Assembly: GCF_032027425.1 (NCBI RefSeq)
Contig: NZ_JAVSJA010000001.1
Span: 310,001 to 374,000 of the forward strand
Direction of reading: 5' to 3'
Origin: Microcystis wesenbergii NRERC-220
GTDB lineage: Bacteria; Cyanobacteriota; Cyanobacteriia; Cyanobacteriales; Microcystaceae
Length of the DNA stretch: 64,000 nucleotides
Shown one piece after another: positions 7,149 through 53,902 of the stretch (position 1 is its first letter; each line of letters opens with the position of its first letter). Made by a program: the position numbers and the translations under genes. The notes under the pieces are model-generated. The model was not told the origin of the DNA. It ran no database searches and was given only the letters and a program-made list of their open reading frames with translations.

Positions 7149-7477
7149 TTTAGATAGGGTTTGTCCCTGGGTGCCTCTCATTTTTGTAAATCTACTGAGT
7201 TGGGATTTTTAAAGGGAAACTATCTTCTAAAATTGGTCATTACTTCCGATTTTATCACTCAATCCTAGGGTTGATTCATGGTAGGGTTGATTCATGAATC
7301 AACCCTACCCGTTGGGGACGCAAGCGCCGTCCCCAAACCCCGGAGCGCATTAGTTTTTCGGTGGGATGCTTACAGGCAGCTGCTGATATATTTGTAATAA
7401 TTTAAGAGTCACTGATAATTGCTAATTGTCCGTATTTCTGCAAATGCGAGATGGAGCCATTGTCTCTATTAGTGCAA
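7149..7477. other. gene-free stretch with a perfect palindrome and a hairpin
   Basis: No coding frame is convincing here. At 7281-7308 lies a perfect 28-base palindrome with arm GTAGGGTTGATTCA; an identical copy is at 41421-41448. A partial direct copy of one arm precedes it (7266-7280). Right after it, TTGGGGACG (7312-7320) can pair with CGTCCCCAA (7328-7336) around a 7-base loop. No T-run follows, so it is not a standard terminator. Confidence 0.7.
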
Positions 7478-15551: not shown

Positions 15552-15704
15552 TAAGTAGGTAGGCGTTAAAAATTATCAGACACCCCCCTTATCAAGGGGG
15601 GATTGAGGGGGGATCCCCCCGCCTATCGGCACCCCCCTTATCAAGGGGGGCAGGGGGGATCGAACCTAAAATCCATTTTTAATTTAATTATAACCAGCTA
15701 CTTA
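15552..15704 (+). repeat. hairpin-rich MITE-like repeat, copy A (uninterrupted)
   Basis: The element starts TAAGTAGGTAGG and ends CCAGCTACTTA, so its ends are short imperfect inverted repeats (TAAGTAG). The middle holds two copies of the strong hairpin ccccccttatcaagggggg. The right part reads gatcgaacctaaaatcca. Copies B (36068-37792) and C (41375-44800) are the same element split by insertion sequences. Confidence 0.8.
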
Positions 15705-22387: not shown

Positions 22388-22730
22388 ACCAAAAGAAAAC
22401 CGAGAGGGCTAGGAAAAAAGCCGGAAACTCCTCTGGATTTCCTCCTTTTTCCAGGCGGAATCTAGGCTTTAAGATGAATGGGATGTTAGGAAGTTCCCGA
22501 AAAAATTGGCAGTTAGGGTTATAAAGTCTAGAAACTAAGTACCTAAAAGCTTTTAGCTTAACCAATTAGGTTTTAGATTCGATCGAGTGACAAGAAAGTA
22601 GCGAAGTTTTCACCTAACACTATCTCAGTGGTTGTACAGAAGTGAAGTTAACTATAGGGTAAGGAATGCCAAAAAGCCTAGACTTAAGATAAAATTATAT
22701 CCAACCACATGCAGTATAGGAGTTGACCCA
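22388..22730. other. gene-free stretch between tnpB and the tandem small genes
   Basis: No convincing coding frame is seen. The last 60 bases (from about 22672) form the leader that is repeated before each of the next three genes (aaagcctagacttaagataa, then tgcagtataggag before the start). Confidence 0.5.
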
Positions 22731-23006
22731 ATGTCTAACGAAACTGTTACTTATTCCCTAGAAGCTGTCCTAACCAGGATTGAGGGGAAGATTGACAAGA
22801 TTGATGAGCGCTTGACAAAAGTAGAAATAGGATTAACCGATCTCAAAGGGGATATTAAAGTGTTAGACGAGAAAATCGAAGGCATCGACAATCGGCTAAA
22901 ATCAGTGGAAGGAACCCAAAAAAATCAGGTCTGGACATTGATCATCCTTTTGGGGAGTGCCATTTTTACGGCCGGATGGAAAGTATTTTTTTCCAGTAAT
23001 ATCTGA
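22731..23006 (+). CDS. small coiled-coil protein with C-terminal membrane anchor, tandem copy 1
   Basis: The 91-residue product opens with SNETVTYSLEAVLTRIEGKI. It has heptad-rich polar helices to about residue 65 and a single membrane segment near the C-terminus (WTLIILLGSAIFTAGWKVFF). This layout, a coiled coil then one membrane helix, resembles XhlA-type or similar small membrane proteins, but I assign no function. It is the first of three tandem paralogues with nearly identical ends. The start is ATG 22731 after a tataggag ribosome-site-like sequence. Confidence 0.72.
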   Translation: MSNETVTYSLEAVLTRIEGKIDKIDERLTKVEIGLTDLKGDIKVLDEKIEGIDNRLKSVEGTQKNQVWTLIILLGSAIFTAGWKVFFSSNI

Positions 23007-23119
23007 TCTTTCTAATTCTCAACAAGACTACAGTTAACCGCTCCTGAAAGAAAATTTTCTTAAAGCCTAGACTTAAGATAAAATTATATCCAACCGGATG
23101 CAGTATAGGAGTTGACCCA

Positions 23120-23428
23120 ATGTCTAACGAAACTGTTACTTATTCCCTAGAAGCTGTCCTCACAAGGATTGAGGGAAAGATCGACTCGCTTGAGAAGCGG
23201 GTTAACGAAAGATTTGACAAGGTAGAAGATCGGTTAACCAAACTAGAAATAGGATTAACCGATCTCAAAGGTGATATTAAAGTGTTAGACGAGAAAATCG
23301 AAGGCATCGACAATCGGCTAATATCGGTAGAGGGAACCCAAAAAAATCAGGTCTGGACATTGATTATCCTTTTGGGAAGTGCCATTATTACGGCTGCTTG
23401 GAAAGTATTTTTTTCCAGTAATATCTGA
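23120..23428 (+). CDS. small coiled-coil protein with C-terminal membrane anchor, tandem copy 2
   Basis: At 102 residues this copy has an extra coiled-coil segment (EKRVNERFDKVEDRL) compared with copy 1. Both ends are nearly identical to the other copies: the N-terminal SNETVTYSLEAVLTRIEGKI and the C-terminal anchor ending WKVFFSSNI. It has its own repeated leader with tataggag before the start. The length change is a whole number of heptad-like units, as expected if only coiled-coil length varies. Confidence 0.72.
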   Translation: MSNETVTYSLEAVLTRIEGKIDSLEKRVNERFDKVEDRLTKLEIGLTDLKGDIKVLDEKIEGIDNRLISVEGTQKNQVWTLIILLGSAIITAAWKVFFSSNI

Positions 23429-23540
23429 GTTCTCTAATTCTCAACAAGACTACAGTTAATCGCTCCTGAAAGAAAATTTTCTTAAAGCCTAGACTAAGAT
23501 AAAATTATATCCAACCAGATGCAGTATAGGAGTTTAGCCA

Positions 23541-23837
23541 ATGTCTAACGAAACTGTCACTTATTCCCTGGATGTCGTCCTTAAAGAAATTAAAGACAGT
23601 ATCAAGGAAGTTAGTCAAAAATTCGATAAGATTGATGAACGCTTGACAAAAGTAGAAATAGGAATAGCTGATCTCAAAGGGGATATTAAAGTGTTAGACG
23701 GGAAAATCGAAGGCATCGACAATCGGCTAATATCGGTAGAGGGAACCCAAAAAAATCAGGTCTGGACATTGATTATCCTTTTGGGGAGTGCCATTATTAC
23801 GGCTGGGTGGAAAGTATTTTTTTCCAGTAATATCTGA
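23541..23837 (+). CDS. small coiled-coil protein with C-terminal membrane anchor, tandem copy 3
   Basis: This 98-residue copy has the most divergent coiled-coil start (DVVLKEIKDSIKEVSQKFDK). It keeps IKVLDGKIEGIDNRLISVEG and the same membrane anchor. The change in one half of the coiled coil, with conserved ends, could alter pairing partners among the three products. It is followed by mnmE in convergent orientation. Confidence 0.72.
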   Translation: MSNETVTYSLDVVLKEIKDSIKEVSQKFDKIDERLTKVEIGIADLKGDIKVLDGKIEGIDNRLISVEGTQKNQVWTLIILLGSAIITAGWKVFFSSNI

Positions 23838-23921
23838 TCTCTCTAATCCTCAACAAAACTACAGTTAACCCAACACAAAAGGATAAAACCTTGTTTCTGG
23901 TTGACCAGATTTCCTCATTGC

Positions 23922-33090: not shown

Positions 33091-33234
33091 ATGTATAGCG
33101 GTATTCAGACGAATGAGAATAATGAACTCCCTACTGGGTAAGAGTTTTAGCCATTTTATTTGTCCCTCACCAGCGCAAACACCGCTGTAGCAGGCTTAAA
33201 TGGAATGTTTGCGAACCCAGCTAACTACATATTA

Positions 33235-34182
33235 TGGCATAGAACGAGTTAGTTAGGACAGATGCCTGAAGGCTTTACTCACAGCATCCACAAGGTTTTC
33301 ACTATCATTGATAATCTGACTAACATAGTTTTTCAATCTAGCCCAGAACTTTTCAATTTTGTTGAGGTCTGGAGAATAGGCGGGTAAAAATAGCACTTCA
33401 CATCCCGCTTTAGCTAACAATTTTTTGATTCTCTCTTTGGGATGAAAACTGGCGTTATCAATGATGATAATTTGACCGGGTAGTAGTTCGGGTAATAGCA
33501 ATTGTTCTATCCACTCACACACCAACTCTGTATTACAGTACCCCTCAAACACCATTGGCGCGATCGTGGAACCACGCCACCAACCGCTGATCACACTAAC
33601 TCGTTCGCTACAGTGACCTAACTTTAAAGCCTCAAATCTTTCTGATTTGTGACAATATCCATAAGGATAATCGATGGTGTTATCTATTCCAGCTTCATCA
33701 ATATAGACAAATCTTTCCGGGGCATAACCTCTGATTTTTTGGAGAAACTCTTTTCGGGCTTCTTCATCTCTTTCTCTGTAGCCATAAGTTTTTTTTTTCT
33801 AGTAAATCCAATTCTTTTGAGCGCTTGACCAATTCTCATCCTACTGACTGGGTTAGCCCATTTTTGCGCCATTTTTTCTTGGGTCAAATGCCCATATTGT
33901 TCGGCCAACTTTTGAAAGGCTTCTAAATCGTCAATTTTGGGCTTCGGCCCTCGACGATAGTTAGTTTTAGCGGCCACCGTCCCAGTTTGTTTCTTCCGTT
34001 TCAGCCATAGGTCTAATGTATTACGACTAATATTGAGGGTGCGACAGACATGGCTTTTTTTCTCCCCTCGCTCTACGGCACTCACTGCTTTCTGTCTTAA
34101 ATCATCACTATAGGGTGCTGCCATGAAAGCTTCTCCTCATTTCTTTTTCTCTATTATGTCCTAACTATCCCGCTCTTTGCTA
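33235..34182 (-). mobile_element. IS630-family element Y, copy 1 (948 bp)
   Basis: Imperfect inverted ends: one end is TGGCATAGAACGAGTTAG, and the other, read inward, is TAGCAAAGAGCGGGATAG; both continue TTAGGAC. The element is flanked by TA on both sides (33233-33234 and 34183-34184), the IS630 target duplication. The second copy at 41501-42448 has the same length. Confidence 0.92.
33253..34124 (-). CDS. IS630-type transposase made by -1 frameshift (element Y, copy 1)
   Basis: Two overlapping frames make one transposase. The first (34124-33684) encodes the helix-turn-helix part (SHVCRTLNISRNTLDLWLKR). The second ends at 33253 and encodes the DDE catalytic core: FVYIDEAGID, IIIIDNASFH and FLPAYSPDLNKIEKFWARLK. 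The frames meet at a run of ten A (33789-33798 on the minus strand), where a -1 shift joins them in frame. The identical run in copy 2 argues for a programmed shift or polymerase slippage rather than decay. The fused product is about 290 residues. Confidence 0.85.
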
Positions 34183-34325
34183 TATACGGAAATTTTCCGT
34201 GTTATCACGCCAAATACGCATTTTTTTAAGAATCTTTCCGTATATTACGCTCAAATGGAGCGATCACGAGAAGTTTTCCGTATAATATTACGATAAGCGT
34301 GTTATGCCGATTAGCGTACTCTTTT
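34183..34325. repeat. three iteron-like TTTCCGT repeats upstream of an integrase relic
   Basis: Motifs TTTTCCGTGTTATCACGC (34193-34210), CTTTCCGTATATTACGC (34234-34250) and GTTTTCCGTATAATATTACG (34273-34292) share TTTCCGT-TAT-T-ACG and are spaced at about 40 bases. The first overlaps a palindrome acggaaattttccgt (34186-34200). They could be recombination or regulatory sites linked to the integrase; no function is proven. Confidence 0.55.
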
Positions 34326-36067: not shown

Positions 36068-36112
36068 TAAGTAGGTAGGTGTTGAAAGTTGTCAGACACC
36101 CCCCTTATCAAG

Positions 36113-37723
36113 CTATCCATTAGTCACATCTTTCTTAACATAAAATTTGACAAAAAGAGAAAAGTGTGCAAGATGGCTCAAGGGGGTTCTATGGGGGAAC
36201 TAATTTGATGAGATAGTTTCCAAGTCTGGCTGATATCATGTAACCTTCGCAGTCCCAACCAAATAGTTTTAACACCAGGTTCACCGTTGACCCTGAGAGA
36301 AGCCGAAGGGTCACCTTTTCTACCTAAAAACCCCCCAAGAGAAGCAATCATTCTGACCGCTTCCCTAAAGGAGGGCGGCTTTTCAGGTGGCGGACTCTTT
36401 TTATGAATAGTGGCACACAAAGATTGCCATTCATGTTCTTCCAAAAAACTTTCACAACTCTCCTCTCCGTGTAAGCGTGCTTGATAGGTTAACCAGAGTA
36501 ATCTCCAAGCTACAATTGAATAGGTAGCTAAGGCCATCTCAATTCTCCGACCCGTTTCTAATTGCAGTTTTTCTAATCCACAACCACTTTTTAAAACAAA
36601 ATGATAGCGTTCTATCAACCAGCGATAACTATACCAGCGCACGCAGGTTATCGCCGATTCAAAGCTACTAATGTCTAGGCTAGTTAAGAGGAGCCAACTG
36701 ATAGGATTAACTCCGGGATGAGGATTTTCTTCTTCGGCTAAAATTACCTGTAATTTGACAGGTTGACGAGGGTTCGCCTTGGGGTGATGGCTAGGTACTT
36801 GTATTTCAAAACTGGCCAATCTAACTGTTAGTTTAGCTAGTCTAGCCTCGTGATTAGGATTGCGTTTTACTTGCACATCTAGGCTACCACAGGCTTTTAT
36901 TTCTCTGATGGATTGATGTAAATATTTAGGCTCTGGATGCCCTGACCTTTGCTTGTCTTCGAGATAGTTAACTTTTCGGTTATGAGTTCCTCGGATTAAT
37001 AAATGAGAGTTAGGACTTCTTGATTGGGCAAATAAATCAAATATGTCTGCTTCACAATCTCCGATTGTTACTACTTGAATTTCTTCGGGTATTTGTTGTT
37101 GTGTTTCTGACCAAGAATCTAACCATCTTTGACTTTCTTTTTCTTGGGTTTCTCTTTTTTTGCGTTGCTTGGCCATCCCTAAATTCTTTTCTTCTCTTGC
37201 CCAGACATATTGATTAATTAGTCCTAAAGGTATTCCTTGCGGTGACACTCCTAATGTGGTATGAACTTTGAGACCAAAGGATGTTTGACAATCTAGATAA
37301 CCCATGCCTTTTTTGGCTTTTTGCGTCGTAAAGTCTAAACTTGTTGTGTCTTGAACTGCCAAAACTATTGGATGTTCTTTGATTCTTTCTACTGTACTTT
37401 TGGCTTGGGCGGCAATTAGATCTGAGGGGTGAAAATAGGGGGAATTCCAAAAGTCGTAGGTGGCACTCGCTGCGGCTAGATTTCCCGAAGCTTGTGGCAC
37501 ACTTGTACTAGGTTGACTGGCCAAATTTTCCACGATACTGATTAACCTTTTCTTTCTTCTGGTGTCTCCTAGGTCTGCATACTGTAGTTCTTGGGCTGCC
37601 CATTTCTCCATTTTTTTGCTTACCTCCACCTTGATTCCTTCTTTCAAAACTATACCTATCAATCGTTTCCCCTTTTTTTAAGTTTCTTCTCTTTTTGTTA
37701 AGAAAGATGTGACTAATGGATAG
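36113..37723 (-). mobile_element. IS4-family (IS50/Tn5-like) insertion sequence, 1611 bp
   Basis: Perfect 27-base terminal inverted repeats begin CTATCCATTAGTCACATC. The flanking target duplication is ccttatcaag (36103-36112 and 37724-37733). The transposase fills the element on the minus strand. Confidence 0.95.
36178..37662 (-). CDS. IS4-family (Tn5-like) transposase
   Basis: The 494-residue transposase has the N-terminal Tn5-type DNA-binding domain (WAAQELQYADLGDTRRKKRL, then QASGNLAAASATYDFWNSP). Catalytic residues are seen in AVQDTTSLDF (first Asp) and VTIGDCEADIFDL (second Asp). The Y-(2)-R-(3)-E motif is in SYRWLIERYHFVLKSG. The frame is full-length and looks active. No passenger genes are present. 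Confidence 0.92.
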   Translation of the reverse strand: MIGIVLKEGIKVEVSKKMEKWAAQELQYADLGDTRRKKRLISIVENLASQPSTSVPQASGNLAAASATYDFWNSPYFHPSDLIAAQAKSTVERIKEHPIVLAVQDTTSLDFTTQKAKKGMGYLDCQTSFGLKVHTTLGVSPQGIPLGLINQYVWAREEKNLGMAKQRKKRETQEKESQRWLDSWSETQQQIPEEIQVVTIGDCEADIFDLFAQSRSPNSHLLIRGTHNRKVNYLEDKQRSGHPEPKYLHQSIREIKACGSLDVQVKRNPNHEARLAKLTVRLASFEIQVPSHHPKANPRQPVKLQVILAEEENPHPGVNPISWLLLTSLDISSFESAITCVRWYSYRWLIERYHFVLKSGCGLEKLQLETGRRIEMALATYSIVAWRLLWLTYQARLHGEESCESFLEEHEWQSLCATIHKKSPPPEKPPSFREAVRMIASLGGFLGRKGDPSASLRVNGEPGVKTIWLGLRRLHDISQTWKLSHQISSPIEPP

Positions 37724-37802
37724 CCTTATCAAGGGAGGCAGGGGTGATCGAACCTAAAATTCATTTTTAATTTAATTATAACCAGCTACTTAATCATTCT
37801 TA

Positions 37803-38950
37803 TACCAATTCTCCAAAATCTGACTACAAATAGTGTAGAATATCATCTTAGTAGAGTTAAAGGAAAAATATGGCAGGAGTTTCTAAGATAGAAATCAGAG
37901 AAAGCGAAGCAGAACTCAAGGAACTGCTCAGACAAGAAAAAACTGGTTCAGGAAAAGAAAGAATACAAGTATTGTACTTATTAAAGACAAAAAAGGCAAA
38001 AACGGTGACAGAAGCCGCCGAAATGATCGGGAGAAACAGAGTCACCGTACAAGATTGGGTAGGAAAATACCGTCAAGGGGGATTAGAAAAATTATTGTCG
38101 AAAAAAGTGGGTACAGGAAGACCAAGAAAAGTTCCCCAATGGGCAGAAAAAGCCTTAGAAAAAAGATTAAAAGAAAACCAAGGGTTTGATAGTCAGGTCG
38201 AGATTTGTGAATGGTTAGAGAAAAAAATAGGGATAAAAGCAAAGTATAAAACCGTTCATAAATTAGTATATTATAGACTAAAAGCGTCACCAAAAATAGC
38301 GAGACCAAAAAGCCTAGAGCAGTCAGAAGAAAGGTTAGAGTATTTTAAAAAAACTTCTTAGAAAACCTGGCAATGCTGAGTTGGGTGGCAATGATAATGA
38401 TGGGATTAGAGGGAAAAATTCGCTTTTTATGTGAAGATGAAACTCGAATAGGACTGAAGACTATCAGTGGCAGAAAAATCACAGCAAAAGGGATAAAACC
38501 TTATGGGAAGGTGCAGTGGAAATTTCAAGCAACTTATATATATGGAGTGGTAGAGCCGAAGACAGGAGAGCATTTTTTTTACGAATTCACTCATTTAAAC
38601 AGTCAATGTTTTCAGATATTTTTAGAGTTAGTTGCTGAACATTTTGCCGATAGTATTTTAATCATCCAGTTAGATAATGCTCGATTTCATAAGGCGAAAA
38701 AGTTAAAAATTCCCGACAACATTATACTGATATTTCAACCGCCCTATTGCCCTGAATCCAATCCAATTGAACAGATTTGGCAATACTTAAAGAAGGGATT
38801 GAGATGGAAATTACCAGCTTCTTTAGATGAATTAAGAGAATTAATTACCGAGAGACTGAAAGTTATGACCCAGAAGGTAATTGCTTCGATTACAGGACGT
38901 GCTTATATTCTTGAGGCTTTATCTGTAGTCGGTATTTAGAGAATTGGTAT
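37803..38950 (+). mobile_element. IS630-family element X, copy 1 (about 1148 bp)
   Basis: The ends are TACCAATTCTCC on the left and GAGAATTGGTAT on the right, with TA flanks at 37801-37802 and 38951-38952. It lies 8 bases beyond the end of repeat copy B. Copy 2 of the same element (41453-44734) is broken up by two further insertions. Confidence 0.9.
37870..38939 (+). CDS. IS630-type transposase made by -1 frameshift (element X, copy 1)
   Basis: The first frame (37870-38361) encodes the helix-turn-helix part with TVTEAAEMIGRNRVTVQDWV. The second encodes the catalytic core: FLCEDETRIGL (first Asp), IIQLDNARFHKAKKL (second Asp) and FQPPYCPESNPIEQIWQYLK (Glu). They meet at a run of seven A (38347-38353); a -1 shift gives YFKKNFLENLAML. 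The same run exists in copy 2. The fused product is about 355 residues. Confidence 0.85.
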
Positions 38951-39000
38951 TACTTCTCCAGCAACCACAAGAATTTTTTATTTTTACAAGAGGTGTAGTT

Positions 39001-39978
39001 ATGTCTTTATCAATTCGAGTAATTCTCCTAGTAGCGACGACAGTTTATCAGACGTTATCTGTTTGGTTAGAAGAACAAAAAGCACCGCCAGGTAATTTGA
39101 TTAATCTGGGTAAATATCGCCTACATTTTTGTCTAGCGGGAGAGGCTAGTACCACTATTATTATTGACCATAGTTTAGGAGGAATTGAGGGATATTTTTT
39201 GATAGAAGAATTGTCACAATTAGCTAGGGTTTGTATTTATGATCGAGCGGGTTATGGTTGGAGTGATCCTAGTCCCCATCCACGAAATAGCTACCAAATT
39301 GTTCAGGAATTAGATAAATTACTAACCCAAGCAAAAATAGAACCGCCTTATATTTTAGTTGGTGATTCTTTTGGCAGTTATAATGTTCGACTGTATGCTC
39401 ATCTGTTCCCAGAAAAAGTAGTAGGTTTGGTACTCACCGATGGTTTACACGAGAAGGGAATGCTGAAAATGTCGCCAGCATTAAAGGCATTAAAATTATT
39501 TTTCATCTCGGGATTTTGGATGTCGATTATCGGCTCAATTTTAGGCATTATCCGAGTTTTGAAAGTTCTAGGAGTTTTTGAATTATTAAAACCAGAATTA
39601 CGTCGCTTTTCCCCAGATTCTTGTCATCGAGTTAAGCGTTCTTTCTGTCGCGCTAAACACTGGATGACGATGAGTAGAGAAATGCTTAATCTCGACCAAA
39701 GCGCTCGTCAGGTGAGTGAGGCTAACAATTTCGGTAATTTACCGATAGTTAGTATTAAAGCTAATTCTTTTTTTAAACCTTCCCTTTGGACTCGGTTTAT
39801 TCCCCTCAAAAGTGCCAACAGGCTCCGGGAGGAGATGCACCTAGAATTAGGCAAGTTATCCGGAGATTTTATAGAAATACAAGCGGATAAAAGTTGCCAT
39901 TTTGTCTGGATGGATCAACCGGATGTGATGATCGATGCGATCAGAATTTTGCTTGACAAAATTAACTCTGTGTGCTAA
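39001..39978 (+). CDS. alpha/beta hydrolase
   Basis: The nucleophile elbow is LVGDSFGSYNVRLYAH (G-D-S-F-G), preceded by the oxyanion-type motif DHSLGGIEGYF and CIYDRAGYGWSDPSP. The catalytic His is likely in DKSCHFVWMDQP near the C-terminus. The start is ATG 39001 after aagaggtgt; an upstream extension would run into the IS630 end. It has 325 residues. There is a hydrophobic stretch at about residues 170-190. Its native promoter has probably been displaced by element X just 50 bases upstream. The substrate is unknown. Confidence 0.82.
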   Translation: MSLSIRVILLVATTVYQTLSVWLEEQKAPPGNLINLGKYRLHFCLAGEASTTIIIDHSLGGIEGYFLIEELSQLARVCIYDRAGYGWSDPSPHPRNSYQIVQELDKLLTQAKIEPPYILVGDSFGSYNVRLYAHLFPEKVVGLVLTDGLHEKGMLKMSPALKALKLFFISGFWMSIIGSILGIIRVLKVLGVFELLKPELRRFSPDSCHRVKRSFCRAKHWMTMSREMLNLDQSARQVSEANNFGNLPIVSIKANSFFKPSLWTRFIPLKSANRLREEMHLELGKLSGDFIEIQADKSCHFVWMDQPDVMIDAIRILLDKINSVC

Positions 39979-40042
39979 GTAATAGGGTAAAATTAATTTC
40001 TTGCTTAGGATAGGCAAGAGGCAACAGGCAAGAGATAGTTAG

Positions 40043-41364
40043 CTGACTGACGGACACAAGTGGGTCAAAACCTGACAAGACAAGGGTTGCCAAAAAGAAA
40101 AATATCTGGGTAGATAGGGAAAAAGCAAGAATCCCTACAAGATGAAAACCGAGAACAGAATCTTCTCCCAAGTTTATTCCTATCTAGAACAAGGAAGCCG
40201 ATTTGTGGATAAAAGACATTTAACCGTCCTCAGTTGGATGGTGACAGCCCTACTCAGTAGTCAAAGTCTCAATCAAGCCAGATGGGAACCCTTTGTACAA
40301 AGCAGAGCCGAACAAGCCAATAGTTATCAGAGACGGTGGAATCGCTTTTGCCAGAATGGAAGAGTAGCGGTGGAAAAGATATACATCCCCTTAATATTGA
40401 AAGCCATCGAGACTTGGAAGGAGAAGGGGGAAAGACTTTATCTAGCAATAGATACCACTCTGTTGTGGAATCAATACTGCTTTGTCTATCTAGCGGTGGT
40501 CTGCGGGGGGAGAGCCGTCCCCTTGATGTGGATGGGATTAGAACATGGTAGTGCCAGCCTAGCTTTTGAGAAATACGAACCCTTGTTGGACAGAGCCAAA
40601 GGCTATCTTCAGGGCTTTGAGAATGTCATGCTGTTAGCCGACCGAGGCTTTGCCAATCAGCAATTAATTCAATGGCTCAGGAAAAATACTTGGCATTGGT
40701 GTCTTCGCTTACCTTGCGATACCCTCATTTACGGTGTTCGCCGTCGGGGTTTTGGCTATGAGGTCAGAGAACTCTATCCTCCCAAACGGCAAGCCTGCTT
40801 TTATCGCAACGTTCAAGTCTGGCAGGAGGCTAGAATCACTGCTCATCTTGCTTTAGCCTCTGTTCCAGGGGTTAAGGATAATTGGGCAATTCTGAGCCAT
40901 GAACCTCCTACCCTTGACACCTTCTGGCAGTATGGTCTTCGTTTTCCCATTGAACATCTCTTTCTCGACAGTAAATCGGGCGTTTTTGACTGGGAACATT
41001 CTCGTGTTCGCTCTGCTGCTTGTTTAGAACGTCTCTATCTCATTGTTGCCATTTCTATTCTCTTTGCTACTTTAACTGGCATGGCGGTTCAACAATCTGG
41101 CTCTCGCCGTCAGGTTGATGCTCATTTTCGGCGTGGTTTGAGTTATTTGAAAATTGGTTTACGTTGGCTGGCGGGAGTTGTTCATAAGGCGCGTCCCTTC
41201 TTGCGACTTGACCACTTATTTTCTGTTGACCCTTTTCCCTGTTTTGCTTCTCGCAAAGCTCGTCAGGATTATTATGGCAAAATTACCTTTTCTTTTATTC
41301 AGGAGTTTGAGGCTTTCACATAACAGTACTTGTCTTTGTATTGAAAAATGTGTCCGTCAGTCAG
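40043..41364 (+). mobile_element. IS4-like insertion sequence, 1322 bp
   Basis: Perfect 16-base inverted ends CTGACTGACGGACACA. The 9-base target duplication gatagttag is present at 40034-40042 and 41365-41373. The element landed next to repeat copy C. Confidence 0.93.
40142..41323 (+). CDS. IS4-like DDE transposase
   Basis: The 393-residue transposase has LYLAIDTTLLWNQY (first Asp), MLLADRGFANQQLIQWL (second Asp), and the C-terminal region FPIEHLFLDSKSGVFDWEHS, likely holding the Glu. The frame is complete and has no interruptions. Assignment to IS4-like elements is based on the D-x-G-F motif and the 9-base target duplication; the subgroup is not certain. Confidence 0.85.
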   Translation: MKTENRIFSQVYSYLEQGSRFVDKRHLTVLSWMVTALLSSQSLNQARWEPFVQSRAEQANSYQRRWNRFCQNGRVAVEKIYIPLILKAIETWKEKGERLYLAIDTTLLWNQYCFVYLAVVCGGRAVPLMWMGLEHGSASLAFEKYEPLLDRAKGYLQGFENVMLLADRGFANQQLIQWLRKNTWHWCLRLPCDTLIYGVRRRGFGYEVRELYPPKRQACFYRNVQVWQEARITAHLALASVPGVKDNWAILSHEPPTLDTFWQYGLRFPIEHLFLDSKSGVFDWEHSRVRSAACLERLYLIVAISILFATLTGMAVQQSGSRRQVDAHFRRGLSYLKIGLRWLAGVVHKARPFLRLDHLFSVDPFPCFASRKARQDYYGKITFSFIQEFEAFT

Positions 41365-41420
41365 GATAGTTAGATAAGTAGGTAGGCGTTAAAAATTATC
41401 AGACACCACCCTTATCAAGG

Positions 41421-41448
41421 GTAGGGTTGATTCATGAATCAACCCTAC
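41421..41448. repeat. 28-base perfect palindrome inside repeat copy C
   Basis: The arm is GTAGGGTTGATTCA. An identical palindrome is at 7281-7308. Once the downstream IS630 is removed, it is flanked on both sides by cttatcaagg, which looks like a 10-base duplication in the same hairpin hit by the element at 36113. Confidence 0.75.
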
Positions 41449-41500
41449 CTTATACCAATTCTCCAAAATCTGACTACAAATAGTGTAGAATATCATCTTA

Positions 41501-42448
41501 TAGCAAAGAGCGGGATAGTTAGGACATAATAGAGAAAAAGAAATGAGGAGAAGCTTTCATGGCAGCACCCTATAGTGATGATTTAAGACAGAAAGCAGTG
41601 AGTGCCGTAGAGCGAGGGGAGAAAAAAAGCCATGTCTGTCGCACCCTCAATATTAGTCGTAATACATTAGACCTATGGCTGAAACGGAAGAAACAAACTG
41701 GGACGGTGGCCGCTAAAACTAACTATCGTCGAGGGCCGAAGCCCAAAATTGACGATTTAGAAGCCTTTCAAAAGTTGGCCGAACAATATGGGCATTTGAC
41801 CCAAGAAAAAATGGCGCAAAAATGGGCTAACCCAGTCAGTAGGATGAGAATTGGTCAAGCGCTCAAAAGAATTGGATTTACTAGAAAAAAAAAACTTATG
41901 GCTACAGAGAAAGAGATGAAGAAGCCCGAAAAGAGTTTCTCCAAAAAATCAGAGGTTATGCCCCGGAAAGATTTGTCTATATTGATGAAGCTGGAATAGA
42001 TAACACCATCGATTATCCTTATGGATATTGTCACAAATCAGAAAGATTTGAGGCTTTAAAGTTAGGTCACTGTAGCGAACGAGTTAGTGTGATCAGCGGT
42101 TGGTGGCGTGGTTCCACGATCGCGCCAATGGTGTTTGAGGGGTACTGTAATACAGAGTTGGTGTGTGAGTGGATAGAACAATTGCTATTACCCGAACTAC
42201 TACCCGGTCAAATTATCATCATTGATAACGCCAGTTTTCATCCCAAAGAGAGAATCAAAAAATTGTTAGCTAAAGCGGGATGTGAAGTGCTATTTTTACC
42301 CGCCTATTCTCCAGACCTCAACAAAATTGAAAAGTTCTGGGCTAGATTGAAAAACTATGTTAGTCAGATTATCAATGATAGTGAAAACCTTGTGGATGCT
42401 GTGAGTAAAGCCTTCAGGCATCTGTCCTAACTAACTCGTTCTATGCCA
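41501..42448 (+). mobile_element. IS630-family element Y, copy 2, nested in element X (948 bp)
   Basis: It is the same 948-bp element as at 33235-34182, in the opposite orientation. Its TA flanks are at 41499-41500 and 42449-42450. Element X reads cttagtagag at this site when uninterrupted. Confidence 0.95.
41559..42430 (+). CDS. IS630-type transposase made by -1 frameshift (element Y, copy 2)
   Basis: The N-terminal frame (41559-41999) and the catalytic frame (ending 42430) meet at ten A (41885-41894). The -1 frame continues TYGYRERDEEARKEFLQKI into FVYIDEAGID, so the shift restores a full DDE transposase. The protein matches copy 1 over the whole visible length. This suggests recent transposition and an active element. 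Confidence 0.87.
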
Positions 42449-43359
42449 TAGTAGAGTTAAAGGAAAAATATGGCAGGAGTTTCTAAGATAGAAATCAGAG
42501 AAAGCGAAGCAGAACTCAAGGAACTGCTCAGACAAGAAAAAACTGGTTCAGGAAAAGAAAGAATACAAGTATTGTACTTATTAAAGACAAAAAAGGCAAA
42601 AACGGTGACAGAAGCCGCCGAAATGATCGGGAGAAACAGAGTCACCGTACAAGATTGGGTAGGAAAATACCGTCAAGGGGGATTAGAAAAATTATTGTCG
42701 AAAAAAGTGGGTACAGGAAGACCAAGAAAAGTTCCCCAATGGGCAGAAAAAGCCTTAGAAAAAAGATTAAAAGAAAACCAAGGGTTTGATAGTCAGGTCG
42801 AGATTTGTGAATGGTTAGAGAAAAAAATAGGGATAAAAGCAAAGTATAAAACCGTTCATAAATTAGTATATTATAGACTAAAAGCGTCACCAAAAATAGC
42901 GAGACCAAAAAGCCTAGAGCAGTCAGAAGAAAGGTTAGAGTATTTTAAAAAAACTTCTTAGAAAACCTGGCAATGCTGAGTTGGGTGGCAATGATAATGA
43001 TGGGATTAGAGGGAAAAATTCGCTTTTTATGTGAAGATGAAACTCGAATAGGACTGAAGACTATCAGTGGCAGAAAAATCACAGCAAAAGGGATAAAACC
43101 TTATGGGAAGGTGCAGTGGAAATTTCAAGCAACTTATATATATGGAGTGGTAGAGCCGAAGACAGGAGAGCATTTTTTTTACGAATTCACTCATTTAAAC
43201 AGTCAATGTTTTCAGATATTTTTAGAGTTAGTTGCTGAACATTTTGCCGATAGTATTTTAATCATCCAGTTAGATAATGCTCGATTTCATAAGGCGAAAA
43301 AGTTAAAAATTCCCGACAACATTATACTGATATTTCAACCGCCCTATTGCCCTGAATCC

Positions 43360-44532
43360 AGAAGTGTTGAACGTTGAGAAAAGTCAGAAAAAAAATGCTA
43401 TTATAGATAGAATCTAGACAACTTATTCCCCTCACAATAGGGAGTTTGCCCTGATGACGAATTTTTCAAAACTCATAAAAGAGCTTCTCAAACCACTGCC
43501 TAAAAATGACTACCCCGCTTTAGATACTTTTACATTTTTGTCCTGTTGGATTGGTTTTGCTTTAGATAAAAGCATCGTCAGTATGAGGGACTTATGCAGT
43601 AGAATGGTACTTCAAGGAATTAATGTAAATTTATCCACATTTTCTAAGGCAAGCAAAATTAGAGAAACAAGTCCATTTGAGAAAGTCATTGTCGAATTAA
43701 ATAAGCGTTTAGTTGCCAAAAAAGGAATAGAGAATGCGCGAGCTTTATTTCCTATTGACTCAACAATAATTAGCTTAACCAGTAAATTACTATGGTCCCA
43801 GGGATGGCATCAAGTAAAACTATTCTCTGGTCTTAATAGTATCACAACAGAGGTGGTCGGAATACTCATCCATTTTGGTCAAGGTCATGACTCAAAAGAA
43901 GGAGGAAAAACGATAGAAGCAATTCCTGTAAATGGAGTTGGAGCAATGGATAGAGGATTTGCGTCTAATCAAAGAATCACCGAATTATTAGAGAGTAGTG
44001 ACAAGCATTTTGTCTTGAGAGTGAAAAATAATATTAGCCTAGAGATGCTCGAAAATGGCAAGTGTAAACTCGGAAAAGATAAAAGACAAATAGAAGTAAG
44101 AGTAGTCGCTTTTTGCGACCTAGAAAGTCAAACAGAATTTCGGCTGGCGACAGATTTACCTCTAGAAGGAGAAGGAGCAGTTAGTAATGAAGAAGTTGCC
44201 GAAATTTACATCCAAAGATGGCAAATAGAACTGCTGTGGAAATTTTTAAAAATGCATCTAAAGTTGGATAATCTAATCACTAAAAACGAGAACGGAATCC
44301 GCCTACAGATCTATAGTTGCATTATCGCTTATCTGATTCTACAGCTAATAGATATTGAAGAAGGATTTGGGAAAAGCTTATTAGACAAACTGCGCTATTT
44401 ACAGAGTTTCATGTGTCAACATATTAGCTATGTACACTGGTTCCGGAGGATTGTCTATTCAATTTAAAATTTGATGTTATAGGGGTATTATGCTTGTCAA
44501 TGTAAAGTTTTATTACAGGATTCAACGTTTCT
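43360..44532 (+). mobile_element. IS4-like insertion sequence, 1173 bp, nested in element X
   Basis: Inverted ends AGAAGTGTTGAA and AGAAACGTTGAA (read inward) match at ten of twelve bases. The 11-base target duplication gccctgaatcc lies at 43349-43359 and 44533-44543. Element X copy 1 has this site once. Confidence 0.93.
43454..44467 (+). CDS. IS4-family transposase
   Basis: The 337-residue transposase shows LFPIDSTIISLTSKL (first Asp), VGAMDRGFASNQRITELL (second Asp) and the Y-(2)-R-(3)-E motif in IYIQRWQIELLWKFLKMHLK. The complete frame and intact ends suggest an active element. The family call follows from the YREK-type motif and the 11-base target duplication. Confidence 0.9.
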   Translation: MTNFSKLIKELLKPLPKNDYPALDTFTFLSCWIGFALDKSIVSMRDLCSRMVLQGINVNLSTFSKASKIRETSPFEKVIVELNKRLVAKKGIENARALFPIDSTIISLTSKLLWSQGWHQVKLFSGLNSITTEVVGILIHFGQGHDSKEGGKTIEAIPVNGVGAMDRGFASNQRITELLESSDKHFVLRVKNNISLEMLENGKCKLGKDKRQIEVRVVAFCDLESQTEFRLATDLPLEGEGAVSNEEVAEIYIQRWQIELLWKFLKMHLKLDNLITKNENGIRLQIYSCIIAYLILQLIDIEEGFGKSLLDKLRYLQSFMCQHISYVHWFRRIVYSI

Positions 44533-44800
44533 GCCCTGAATCCAATCCAATTGAACAGATTTGGCAATACTTAAAGAAGGGATTGAGATGGAAATTACCA
44601 GCTTCTTTAGATGAATTAAGAGAATTAATTACCGAGAGACTGAAAGTTATGACCCAGAAGGTAATTGCTTCGATTACAGGACGTGCTTATATTCTTGAGG
44701 CTTTATCTGTAGTCGGTATTTAGAGAATTGGTATTATCAAGGGGAGCAGGGGGGATCGAACCTAAAATCCATTTTTAATTTAATTATAACCAGCTACTTA

Positions 44801-45022
44801 TGTGTAATTAATTGTGTCTAGCTACTTAAGAACTTGCCCTCAAAATTAATTTTTGATAATTTTAATTAATATTGTGTCTCCCCACTCTCCTATACCTTTT
44901 AAACAGGATTTAGTATTACAAGCGGTTTTATTAACCCGCAGCAGGGCAAGGGTTAAGGAGACTTAGGGATAATTCCCAGACCTGAACCCGGATTATTATT
45001 AATATTCTCAACCCTAACTTTA
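44801..45022. other. gene-free stretch of degenerate repeats
   Basis: Phrases such as tgtgtaattaatt and tcctataccttttaaa recur near 62490 and 62625, so this is dispersed repeat DNA. No gene is seen. Confidence 0.45.
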
Positions 45023-45667
45023 CTAATTATTGAGGGTAATAATCTGGGCGCTAAAACCCTGTTTAGTTAACTCTTGTACTCTTTCCTTTGCTTGGTATTG
45101 TTGCTGAAATAACCCCGCTTGAATAACATTTTCTCCCGCGCGGATAAATGCGAGGGGTTCAATTTCTTGAATTTTTGCCAACGCTTCTGCACTATTACTC
45201 TGAACTTCAACCCGAAAGAGTTGATTAGTAGCAATAACCCGCTGCTGTGGTGGGGGAGAAGGGGGTTTATTGGCGCGATTTTCAGGTGTGGGTGCCGGTG
45301 GATTGACAGTTTGACGATTATTATTATTAATCACCGTAGCATCGGCAGGACGCACGGGAGCGGGGGCTTGAAAAACGTATTCTCTCAGGGGTTGATTACT
45401 GGAAACTGGGGCAGCCACTGGGGGGTGAACTGAAGGAGAATTAACCGGGAGCAAATTTAAGGGTGGACATCGGGAACAATTAACAGCACTGGGACTGTCT
45501 GAACGTTTAGTTGGTTGTCTCACCGCCGGCGGTGGGGGCAAACGACGACTGGGATAAACATTCTGGGCAAAAGATAAGTTTGCTTTTAGCAGCAGCGTTG
45601 CTTGAGCGATTATACCGACTTTTAACCAAAATAAAGCCGAGAAAAACAGTAGGTTTGTTCTCATCAT
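45023..45667 (-). CDS. secreted proline-rich protein with C-terminal SPOR-like domain
   Basis: A signal-like N-terminus (LLFFSALFWLKVGIIAQATL) is followed by a proline-rich low-complexity linker (about residues 40-145). A C-terminal SPOR-like domain begins LFRVEVQSNSAEAL and has AGLFQQQYQAKERVQELTKQ. SPOR domains bind denuded peptidoglycan at division or sporulation sites, so a cell-wall role is plausible. The 214-residue protein may start at either of two adjacent ATG codons. Confidence 0.75.
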   Translation of the reverse strand: MMRTNLLFFSALFWLKVGIIAQATLLLKANLSFAQNVYPSRRLPPPPAVRQPTKRSDSPSAVNCSRCPPLNLLPVNSPSVHPPVAAPVSSNQPLREYVFQAPAPVRPADATVINNNNRQTVNPPAPTPENRANKPPSPPPQQRVIATNQLFRVEVQSNSAEALAKIQEIEPLAFIRAGENVIQAGLFQQQYQAKERVQELTKQGFSAQIITLNN

Positions 45668-45769
45668 ACTAGCTTGTCCTCACACAAGATTTGGGTACAC
45701 CATGTCCAAATTTTAAAGGAGGAGATGCTAGTCTAGAAAGTATATTGGTTAAAAATCATTACAAGGTTT

Positions 45770-46828
45770 ATGGGAAAAGTTGTTGTCGGTCTATCGGGGG
45801 GAGTAGATAGCTCTGTCGCCGCTGCCGCCTTACACGCTCAAGGTTATGATGTTATTGGCTTGACCCTGTGGTTAATGAAGGGTAAAGGTCAATGCTGCTC
45901 CGAGGGTATGGTAGATGCGGCCTTTATTTGTGAGCAGTTGGGGGTTCCCCATCATATCGTCGATAGTCGCGAGCTTTTCCAAAAAGAAATTATTGATTAT
46001 CTAGTTTCCGGTTACGAAGCGGGAATCACACCGCTGCCCTGTTCTCAGTGCAATAAAGCGGTAAAATTTGGACCGATGCTGCATTATGCTAGGGAAACCT
46101 TAGAAGCGGATACTATTGCCACCGGTCACTACGCTAGAATTCTTTTTTCTCCGGAAAATAACCGTTATCAACTGCTGCGCGCCGTCGATAACAATAAAGA
46201 TCAATCCTATTTTCTCTATGATCTAACTCAAGATGTACTGCGTCGGACTTTATTTCCCTTGGGAGAACAAACCAAGGCAGAAACCCGCAGAATTGCCCAG
46301 GAATTCGGCTTAAAAACGGCAGATAAACCCGATAGTCAGGATTTATGCTTGATTGAAGCTCACGGAACTATGCGATCGTTCTTAGATAAGTATATCGCCG
46401 TTAGTGAGGGCGATATCGTCGATATCGAGGGCAAAGTTTTGGGTAAACATAGCGGTATCCATCATTATACGATCGGACAACGCAAAGGCATCGGCATCGC
46501 CGCCGCCGAACCCCTCTATGTGGTCAAACTGGATCCCGTCATGAATCGGGTTATCGTCGGTAATCGCGAAAGTGCCGTTAGTGCCGCTTGTCTTGTCGGA
46601 CGGATGAACTGGGTTTCTATTGCCGAACCCACCACCCCTATCCGCGCACAAGTGCAGGTCCGTTATCGTTCTCCGGCCGTTCCCGTCAATGTTATTCCCC
46701 TAGAAAATAATCAAGTGAAGCTGGTTTTCGATGAACCACAATTTAGCATCACCCCGGGCCAGGCAGCCGTAATTTATGAAGGGGAAATCGTTCTCGGTGG
46801 GGGGATTATCTCAGGAGCAACCCCATAG
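45770..46828 (+). CDS. mnmA: tRNA-specific 2-thiouridylase
   Basis: MnmA thiolates U34 of tRNA-Lys, -Glu and -Gln. The PP-loop is [15 protein letters not shown]. The catalytic cysteines are in [13 protein letters not shown] (first) and [10 protein letters not shown] (second). The 352-residue length and [16 protein letters not shown] fit the family. It functions in the same wobble-uridine modification pathway as mnmE at 23922, although the genes are apart. Confidence 0.97.
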
Positions 46829-53203: not shown

Positions 53204-53902
53204 ATGTCTCAACCGATTACCATCGAAGATATCTATAAACTTTTTGAGAAAACTAACGAAAAGTTTGAACAATCACGCCAAGAATACGATCGCCGGGCCG
53301 CTGAAGCTAAGGCCGAAGCCGATCGCCGGGCCGCTGAATACGATCGCCGGGCTGCTGAAGCCAAGGCCGAAGCTGATCGCCGGGCCGCTGAATACGATCG
53401 CCGGGCTGCTGAAGCCAAGGCCGAAGCCGATCGCCGTTTAGCCGAGCTAGAGAAAACAGTGGCTAATACCAGTCGTGCCGTGGATAGTTTAACCACTCGC
53501 TGGGGAAGATTTGTCGAGGAATTAGTCGAACCTGCTGTTATTAGCCTATTTCGTGCCAAAGGTATCGATGTTAAAGAAACCTACAGTCGTGCCAGGGTAA
53601 AACGGCAAGGAATAGCCATGGAGATTGACATTTTAGCCGTCGATGAAACCGAGGTAGTTTTAGTAGAATGTAAGTCTCGTTTATCGAAAGATGATGTCAA
53701 TGAGTTTTTAGAAAAATTAAGTCGATTTAAACAAGCATTTCCCCATTATAAAAACTATCAGGCTTATGGTGCAGTGGCGGGAATAGAAATAGACGAAGGA
53801 GTAGATCGTTATGCCTATAAACAAGGTTTATTTGTGATTAAACCATCGGGAGAAACGGTAGAAATCATTAATGATTCTGGTTTCAAGCCTAAATTATGGT
53901 AA
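53204..53902 (+). CDS. PD-(D/E)XK-like DUF3782 protein with an 18-residue coiled-coil repeat
   Basis: The N-terminal 28 residues precede three 18-residue repeats (residues 29-82; DRRAAEAKAEADRRAAEY), a charged alanine-rich helix. The C-terminal domain (about 100-232) includes MEIDILAVDETEVVLVECKS, matching the PD-(D/E)XK site (D then E-C-K). The family is DUF3782 of cyanobacteria. The DNA repeats are 54 bases each (53288-53449) and contain GATCGCC. Copy number probably varies between strains. A nuclease activity is possible but unproven. Confidence 0.8.
   Translation: MSQPITIEDIYKLFEKTNEKFEQSRQEYDRRAAEAKAEADRRAAEYDRRAAEAKAEADRRAAEYDRRAAEAKAEADRRLAELEKTVANTSRAVDSLTTRWGRFVEELVEPAVISLFRAKGIDVKETYSRARVKRQGIAMEIDILAVDETEVVLVECKSRLSKDDVNEFLEKLSRFKQAFPHYKNYQAYGAVAGIEIDEGVDRYAYKQGLFVIKPSGETVEIINDSGFKPKLW

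Follow-up and report, generated by a model that had tools for sequence, protein, structure and literature searches.

How was a nest of mobile DNA at one locus of Microcystis wesenbergii NRERC-220 built, and in what order did its layers arrive? The window analysed here is a 64,000-nucleotide stretch of this genome (G000; 4.68 Mb in 2 contigs), and an earlier note on it had described, at 41375..44800, a MITE-like repeat that holds a 28-base palindrome and an IS630 element, X, which itself holds a second IS630 element, Y, and an IS4-like element. We recovered these layers and their coordinates, with refinements (Table 1), and the sequences argue that the locus was very probably built by successive transpositions: the outer repeat, then the palindrome, then X, then Y and the IS4-like element. 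Considered as a nest, the locus exemplifies well a kind that is already known. The palindrome is its odd layer and the part that would repay work.

Table 1. Features of the nest and its surroundings, in window positions.
Feature	Position	Strand	Basis
Outer repeat, layer 1, MITE with TA at both ends	41375..44800	+	sister copies, empty sites
Parts of the outer repeat	left 41375-41452 (palindrome within), right from 44735 on		
28-base palindrome, layer 2 (26-base core 41422-41447)	41421..41448	.	absent from the G004 repeat, present in G002
Element X, layer 3, IS630 family, interrupted	41453..44734	+	reconstruction and IS630 model
Element Y, layer 4a, IS630 family, 948 bp	41501..42448	+	IS630 model, TA duplication
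IS4-like element, layer 4b, 1175 bp	43359..44533	+	IS4 model, 9-bp duplication
X copy 1, uninterrupted reference, TA duplication	37803..38950	+	
IS4-type element, 10 bp left of the outer repeat	40043..41364	+	sequence; IS4_2 model below cut-off
IS50/Tn5-like element inside the sister outer repeat 36068-37792	36113..37723	-	Tn5-type domains, IS4_3 model
Hydrolase gene, left neighbour of the nest	38944-39978		
tRNA-thiolation-type gene, right neighbour	45770-46828		PF03054; block 44801-46400 leads into the gene

Removal in silico of 950 nt (Y and one TA) and 1184 nt (the IS4-like element and one duplication) from 41453-44734 leaves 1148 nt that are 100% identical to X copy 1 at 37803-38950. The alignment that had been proposed as a check thus showed no poor match at the junctions, and identity letter for letter rules out chance as an explanation. 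The TA pairs described around X (41451-41452 and 44735-44736) and around Y (41499-41500 and 42449-42450) are in place. The letters gccctgaatcc, reported on either side of the IS4-like element, are likewise present at 43349/44533, but the duplication itself is the 9-bp CCCTGAATC at 43350-43358 and 44534-44542. Its length is exactly 9 bp at every one of the 17 distinct sites, which rules out an 11-bp duplication, whose extra matches include the element's own terminal C and G.

The family names given to the three elements also agree with the protein models. X encodes an IS630-type transposase with a DDE_3 domain (NF033545, 141.5 bits in frame 2 against a cut-off of 100, and 70.7 in frame 1; PF13358, 4e-20). 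The two frames of Y score 43.4 and 91.1 bits with NF033545, each below the whole-protein cut-off of 100, and we class Y as carrying an IS630-type transposase on PF01710 and PF13358, both above cut-off. The IS4-like transposase matches NF033592 (151.2 bits, cut-off 115); the element ends CAGAA...TTCTG and has 26 matches in this genome, 24 of them full-length. In X and Y the transposase is split over two frames (163 + 188 aa in X), and the second frame lies at a -1 shift at a run of A, which suggests frameshifting.

Members of the IS630 family are expected to duplicate TA. Six copies of X lie in this genome, four of them uninterrupted, and over their sites the duplication reads TA three times, GA twice and AA once, so X is not an IS630 element by strict TA duplication. 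Judged on these copies it is IS630-like by protein and atypical by duplication, TA not being its fixed target repeat. One GA site is backed by a 280-bp uninterrupted and 100% identical stretch in G001; at the AA site, the G002 sequence differs at the junction. We rejected the alternative that a TA within the ends of X is its duplication, as this implies extra bases that are absent from the uninterrupted sites in G002 (nest locus) and G001 (L029). At L029 (G000:C1 224253-225400) the X copy interrupts a 335-aa reading frame that is intact in G001.

The order of the middle layers can be read from the duplication that flanks the palindrome. The left copy of CCTTATCAAGGG lies at 41410-41421, and the right copy begins at 41448-41452 and continues at 44737-44743, so that it reads CCTTA, X, TATCAAGGG. 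Because X splits this right copy, the palindrome preceded X, and X preceded its two inserts in the layering. The earlier note had called the precedence of X over Y and the IS4-like element certain; the layering bears this out, although X may have brought the inserts with it. It had left the order of these two undecided, and we concur, since they occupy separate places in X and nothing orders them. A second nest, L147, in which X holds Y and Y holds the IS4-like element, was considered as a guide and set aside because its order arises through a composite that recurs elsewhere and is not transferable to the present nest.

Earlier stages at the same place in other genomes make the order of insertion checkable beyond inference. 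In G004 the locus holds the outer repeat and neither palindrome nor X; in G002 it also holds the palindrome and its duplication but no X; G000 has all layers, and the three share the same neighbours on either side. The comparison of strains that had been suggested therefore does reveal intermediate stages. Within the fetched stretch, the hydrolase gene and the 44801-46400 block are adjacent in 7 of 12 genomes (G000, G001, G002, G003, G004, G006 and G007). The outer repeat stands between them in the three genomes just named, and in the other four it is absent and the intervening sequence differs. In the remaining five, including G011, the only other genome of the same species, the fetched stretch does not contain the hydrolase. 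G000 is like G002 in having the palindrome and like G004 in the GGGGAGC of the right half, so the three genomes do not form a simple series of descent. The G004 pattern would look no different had the palindrome been lost precisely between its direct repeats, or had gene conversion from another copy of the repeat taken place.

A model that accommodates these layers has four steps. A TA-specific MITE, the outer repeat, would have entered between the hydrolase gene and the region before the tRNA-thiolation-type gene. A palindrome derived from ISAs1-family ends would have entered the centre of this repeat, leaving CCTTATCAAGGG on either side, and X would have inserted into the copy on the right. 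X would in turn have received Y and the IS4-like element, in either order. The layering, the duplications, the rebuilt X, the empty sites of the outer repeat at other loci and the two earlier stages in other genomes are observed directly. Two parts of the model are inferred: the placing of the palindrome by an ISAs1-type transposase, and the entry of Y and the IS4-like element into X after, rather than before, its arrival at this locus.

The last point has to be weighed against composites found elsewhere in the genome. Y, the IS4-like element and an insert of 101 bp together form a 2235-bp unit that lies at L147, L151, L152 and L153, once within another X; its recurrence at four sites with TA on both sides indicates that it evidently moved as a unit. 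Larger Y mosaics recur as well. Since the composite recurs, X could also have arrived at the nest with Y, the IS4-like element or both already inside, leaving fewer local events than layers. We consider this unlikely, because the five other X copies in this genome all lack Y at X position 48 and the IS4-like element at 948-956. That the nest is an assembly artefact is something we hardly credit: X, Y and the IS4-like element do each occur in several, nearly identical copies, but the genome is in just 2 contigs, each junction shows its family's duplication, and both outer flanks join the repeat in G002 and G004 without a break. Local, successive insertion is thus the reading we retain, with the reservation that a nest can move as one composite, which restricts what layers can tell about dates.

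The outer repeat has two sister copies in the window (15552-15704 and 36068-37792). Among 89 distinct copies the ends read TAAGTAG...CTACTTA, preceded by T in 86 and followed by A in 88. Queries made of joined flanks found uninterrupted sites at two loci: one TA stands in place of two in 5 of 5 aligned relatives of the 15552 copy (5 of the 6 spanning it aligned) and in 5 of 5 aligned relatives, out of 10, of the L015 copy. Short, non-coding, present in 89 copies and restored to a single TA in all 10 aligned relatives, the repeat deserves the MITE-like label it had been given, and by these features of its sequence it is a mobile element. In the sister repeat at 36068-37792 the centre, the same site as that of the palindrome, holds an IS50/Tn5-like element with a 10-bp duplication, CCTTATCAAG; the centre of the outer repeat therefore accepts more than one kind of insertion. 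Just to the left of the nest, the IS4-type element at 40043-41364 has the 9-bp duplication GATAGTTAG at 40034-40042 and 41365-41373 and an empty site in G002. The window also contains repeated units of about 282 nt (three) and 54 nt (three) within 22673-23904 and 53282-53443, and Rfam gave no gathering-level match between 36000 and 46000.

The palindrome was found inside the repeat, as reported, and lies at 41421-41448. The 28-mer starts with GTAG, ends with CTAC and folds into a perfect hairpin, and its 30-base form matches the window at 2 places, where shuffles predict 0.00 matches. The other window copy (7265-7309) has one extra half and no flanking duplication. With up to one mismatch allowed, the 26-base core occurs in 12 of 12 Microcystis genomes (3-95 matches each), whereas the 38 genomes from 13 other genera of the family have none. 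In a genome collection, all 80 listed loci, of at least 120 stretches with the palindrome, are from Microcystis among the matches listed; viral contigs held no exact 26-mer. We read 55 of the 95 palindromes in G000: a strict rule places 26 at the CTTATCAAGGG site of an outer repeat, and a looser one puts 33 in an outer-repeat context. Many of those elsewhere bear extra 16-base copies of one half, and the single-half side is usually preceded by GGG in the target.

To what extent the palindrome inserts was examined by surveying duplications at 165 distinct sites, those less than 60 bases from a locus end having been dropped. By a simple motif rule that misses some outer repeats, 118 of the sites lie outside them. 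An exact 10-bp duplication is present at 12 of the 118, compared with a permuted mean of 1.27 and a maximum of 6 (500 permutations), and exact duplications of 8, 9, 11 and 12 bp number 0, 1, 0 and 2. By the rule used, 91 of the 118 have no duplication, implying that decay or recombination is common. Within the outer repeat the flanking repeat of the palindrome reads 12 bp.

Unpaired halves of the palindrome led to a longer element. Its complete copy at L351 (1418 bp) ends in TAGGGCTGTTTCATT, is flanked by the 10-bp duplication GGGGTTTGGG and encodes a 373-aa ISAs1-family transposase (NF033564, 265 bits). The palindrome half TAGGGTTGATTCAT is one end of the copies at L240, L295, L331 and L417. 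Eight copies have both ends; an exact 10-bp duplication, the length at which the palindrome survey peaks, flanks three of them (L341, L351 and L417), L334 has 9 bp, and L332, L333, L343 and L352 have none. A 175-bp relative at L311 has similar ends and the duplication GGGGTTGGGG. At L013, a palindrome array is one 16-base unit longer in G002, and the same place in G001 holds a full 1419-bp element in a target of the same kind, flanked by the same duplication; as this target is a repeat sequence, a hot spot may have been hit more than once.

Taken together, the palindrome looks like an ends-only mobile element, a putative MITE of the ISAs1-family element. Our specific proposal is tentative and, in our estimate, a little short of probable: the palindrome would be a transposon of 26 bases, one ISAs1-type end fused to its own inverted copy without an interior, which an ISAs1-family transposase would still insert with a 10-base duplication and which would lengthen through tandem 16-base copies of one of its halves. 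Simple deletion of the interior of an ISAs1-family copy does not yield the palindrome, since it has one end twice, inverted, whereas the two ends of L417 differ (TTGATTC and CTGTTTC types). Copy numbers count against an ISAs1 source, as the genomes richest in the palindrome are poor in the element: matches to the element and to the palindrome number 2 vs 95 in G000, 3 vs 76 in G008 and 1 vs 62 in G002. G011 has 22 matches to the element and 40 palindromes. In the better of the G000 copies the gene is broken.

An alternative is that the palindrome was not inserted at the nest locus at all, having come by gene conversion from another outer repeat or having been lost by slippage in G004. Nearly half of the palindromes read share one site of the outer repeats, as this would have it, and the state of the palindrome clusters on a tree of 90 outer repeats (50 with and 40 without it), itself poorly resolved, which requires 16 state changes against 23-35 in 200 shuffles. 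On this basis the palindrome has in part been passed down along repeat lineages and in part been gained or lost, and much of its spread may be by inheritance within those lineages. However, 10-bp duplications are above chance outside the outer repeats, which indicates that the palindrome does insert somewhere; we regard conversion or loss at the nest as a serious contender that is improbable on balance. Palindrome arrays outside the outer repeat gave no clean empty sites at the same locus: joined flanks matched related repeats without the insert, and at the L204 array the relatives are too divergent to be read as an empty site. We see far less merit in a GTAG-tagged REP-type repeat moved by a REP-associated tyrosine transposase. 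A dispersed perfect hairpin bounded by GTAG and CTAC would suit it, and such palindromes are known from cyanobacteria (PMC3733652). Outside the outer repeat, however, the G and C are not parts of the element, the G coming from GGG-ending targets and the arrays ending in CCCTA, and we did not find the GTAG tag conserved as part of the palindrome. The 10-bp duplications and the matching ISAs1-family element favour a DDE transposase instead.

If it is true that two fused ends of 12-14 bases suffice for a DDE transposase, the known size limit would be lowered, and an ends-only palindrome would be among the smallest DDE-mobilised elements described. Ends-only insertion, if true, would also account for a repeat that is specific to one genus and reaches 95 copies in a genome. 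The palindrome arrays share with ISAs1-family insertion sequences an end sequence, the 10-base duplication and the target; the palindrome differs from them in having one end twice, inverted, and no gene.

The very small mobile repeats of Nostoc (SDR) were reportedly presented by Elhai in 2008 with neither a target duplication nor an insertion-sequence parent. They are similarly dispersed and apparently mobile cyanobacterial repeats, 21-27 bases long and often within other repeats, whereas for the palindrome we propose both a duplication and a parent. SDR5, a repeat of this type, is treated in PMC4390886. GTAG-tagged REP palindromes (PMC3733652) are also short and high in copy number; here, in contrast, the target is duplicated and the GTAG letters are not conserved parts. 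PMC11448079 describes a 187-bp MITE of Microcystis driven by an ISL3-family transposase, likewise a non-autonomous element linked to its transposase by ends and duplication length. That MITE has 9-base imperfect ends and 8-base duplications, as opposed to TA for our outer repeat, and 10 bases, ISAs1 and no interior for the palindrome. Nested transposable elements have been used for relative dating, in plants for example (PMC6911290 and PMC3903597), and they resemble the present nest in that layers with intact target duplications give a relative order. The nest differs from these in consisting of insertion sequences and MITEs of a bacterium whose genome is small, and in having earlier stages at the same locus in other genomes. 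A search of the literature by title and abstract returned no description of this palindrome or nest, a result that does not establish absence from print, and the 18-letter palindrome core had no match in the literature text searched.

Y itself is abundant in this genome, with 19 matches over at least 952 of 955 bases and many fragments, and its second window copy lies inside an inverted match at 33230-34184. TA is present at 27 of 27 printed head-tail pairs of Y, some of which join mosaic pieces. An approximately 4-kb mosaic of Y pieces has an identical arrangement at three places, L148, L149 and L165 (G000:C1 at 718400, 796000 and 4279500); it starts with the left end of Y and closes with an inverted copy of that left end. 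A unit with two Y left ends seems to have multiplied, in parallel to the two identical ends of the palindrome. At L156, L157, L160 and L161 of G000, the final 263 bases of a full Y are repeated immediately after it.
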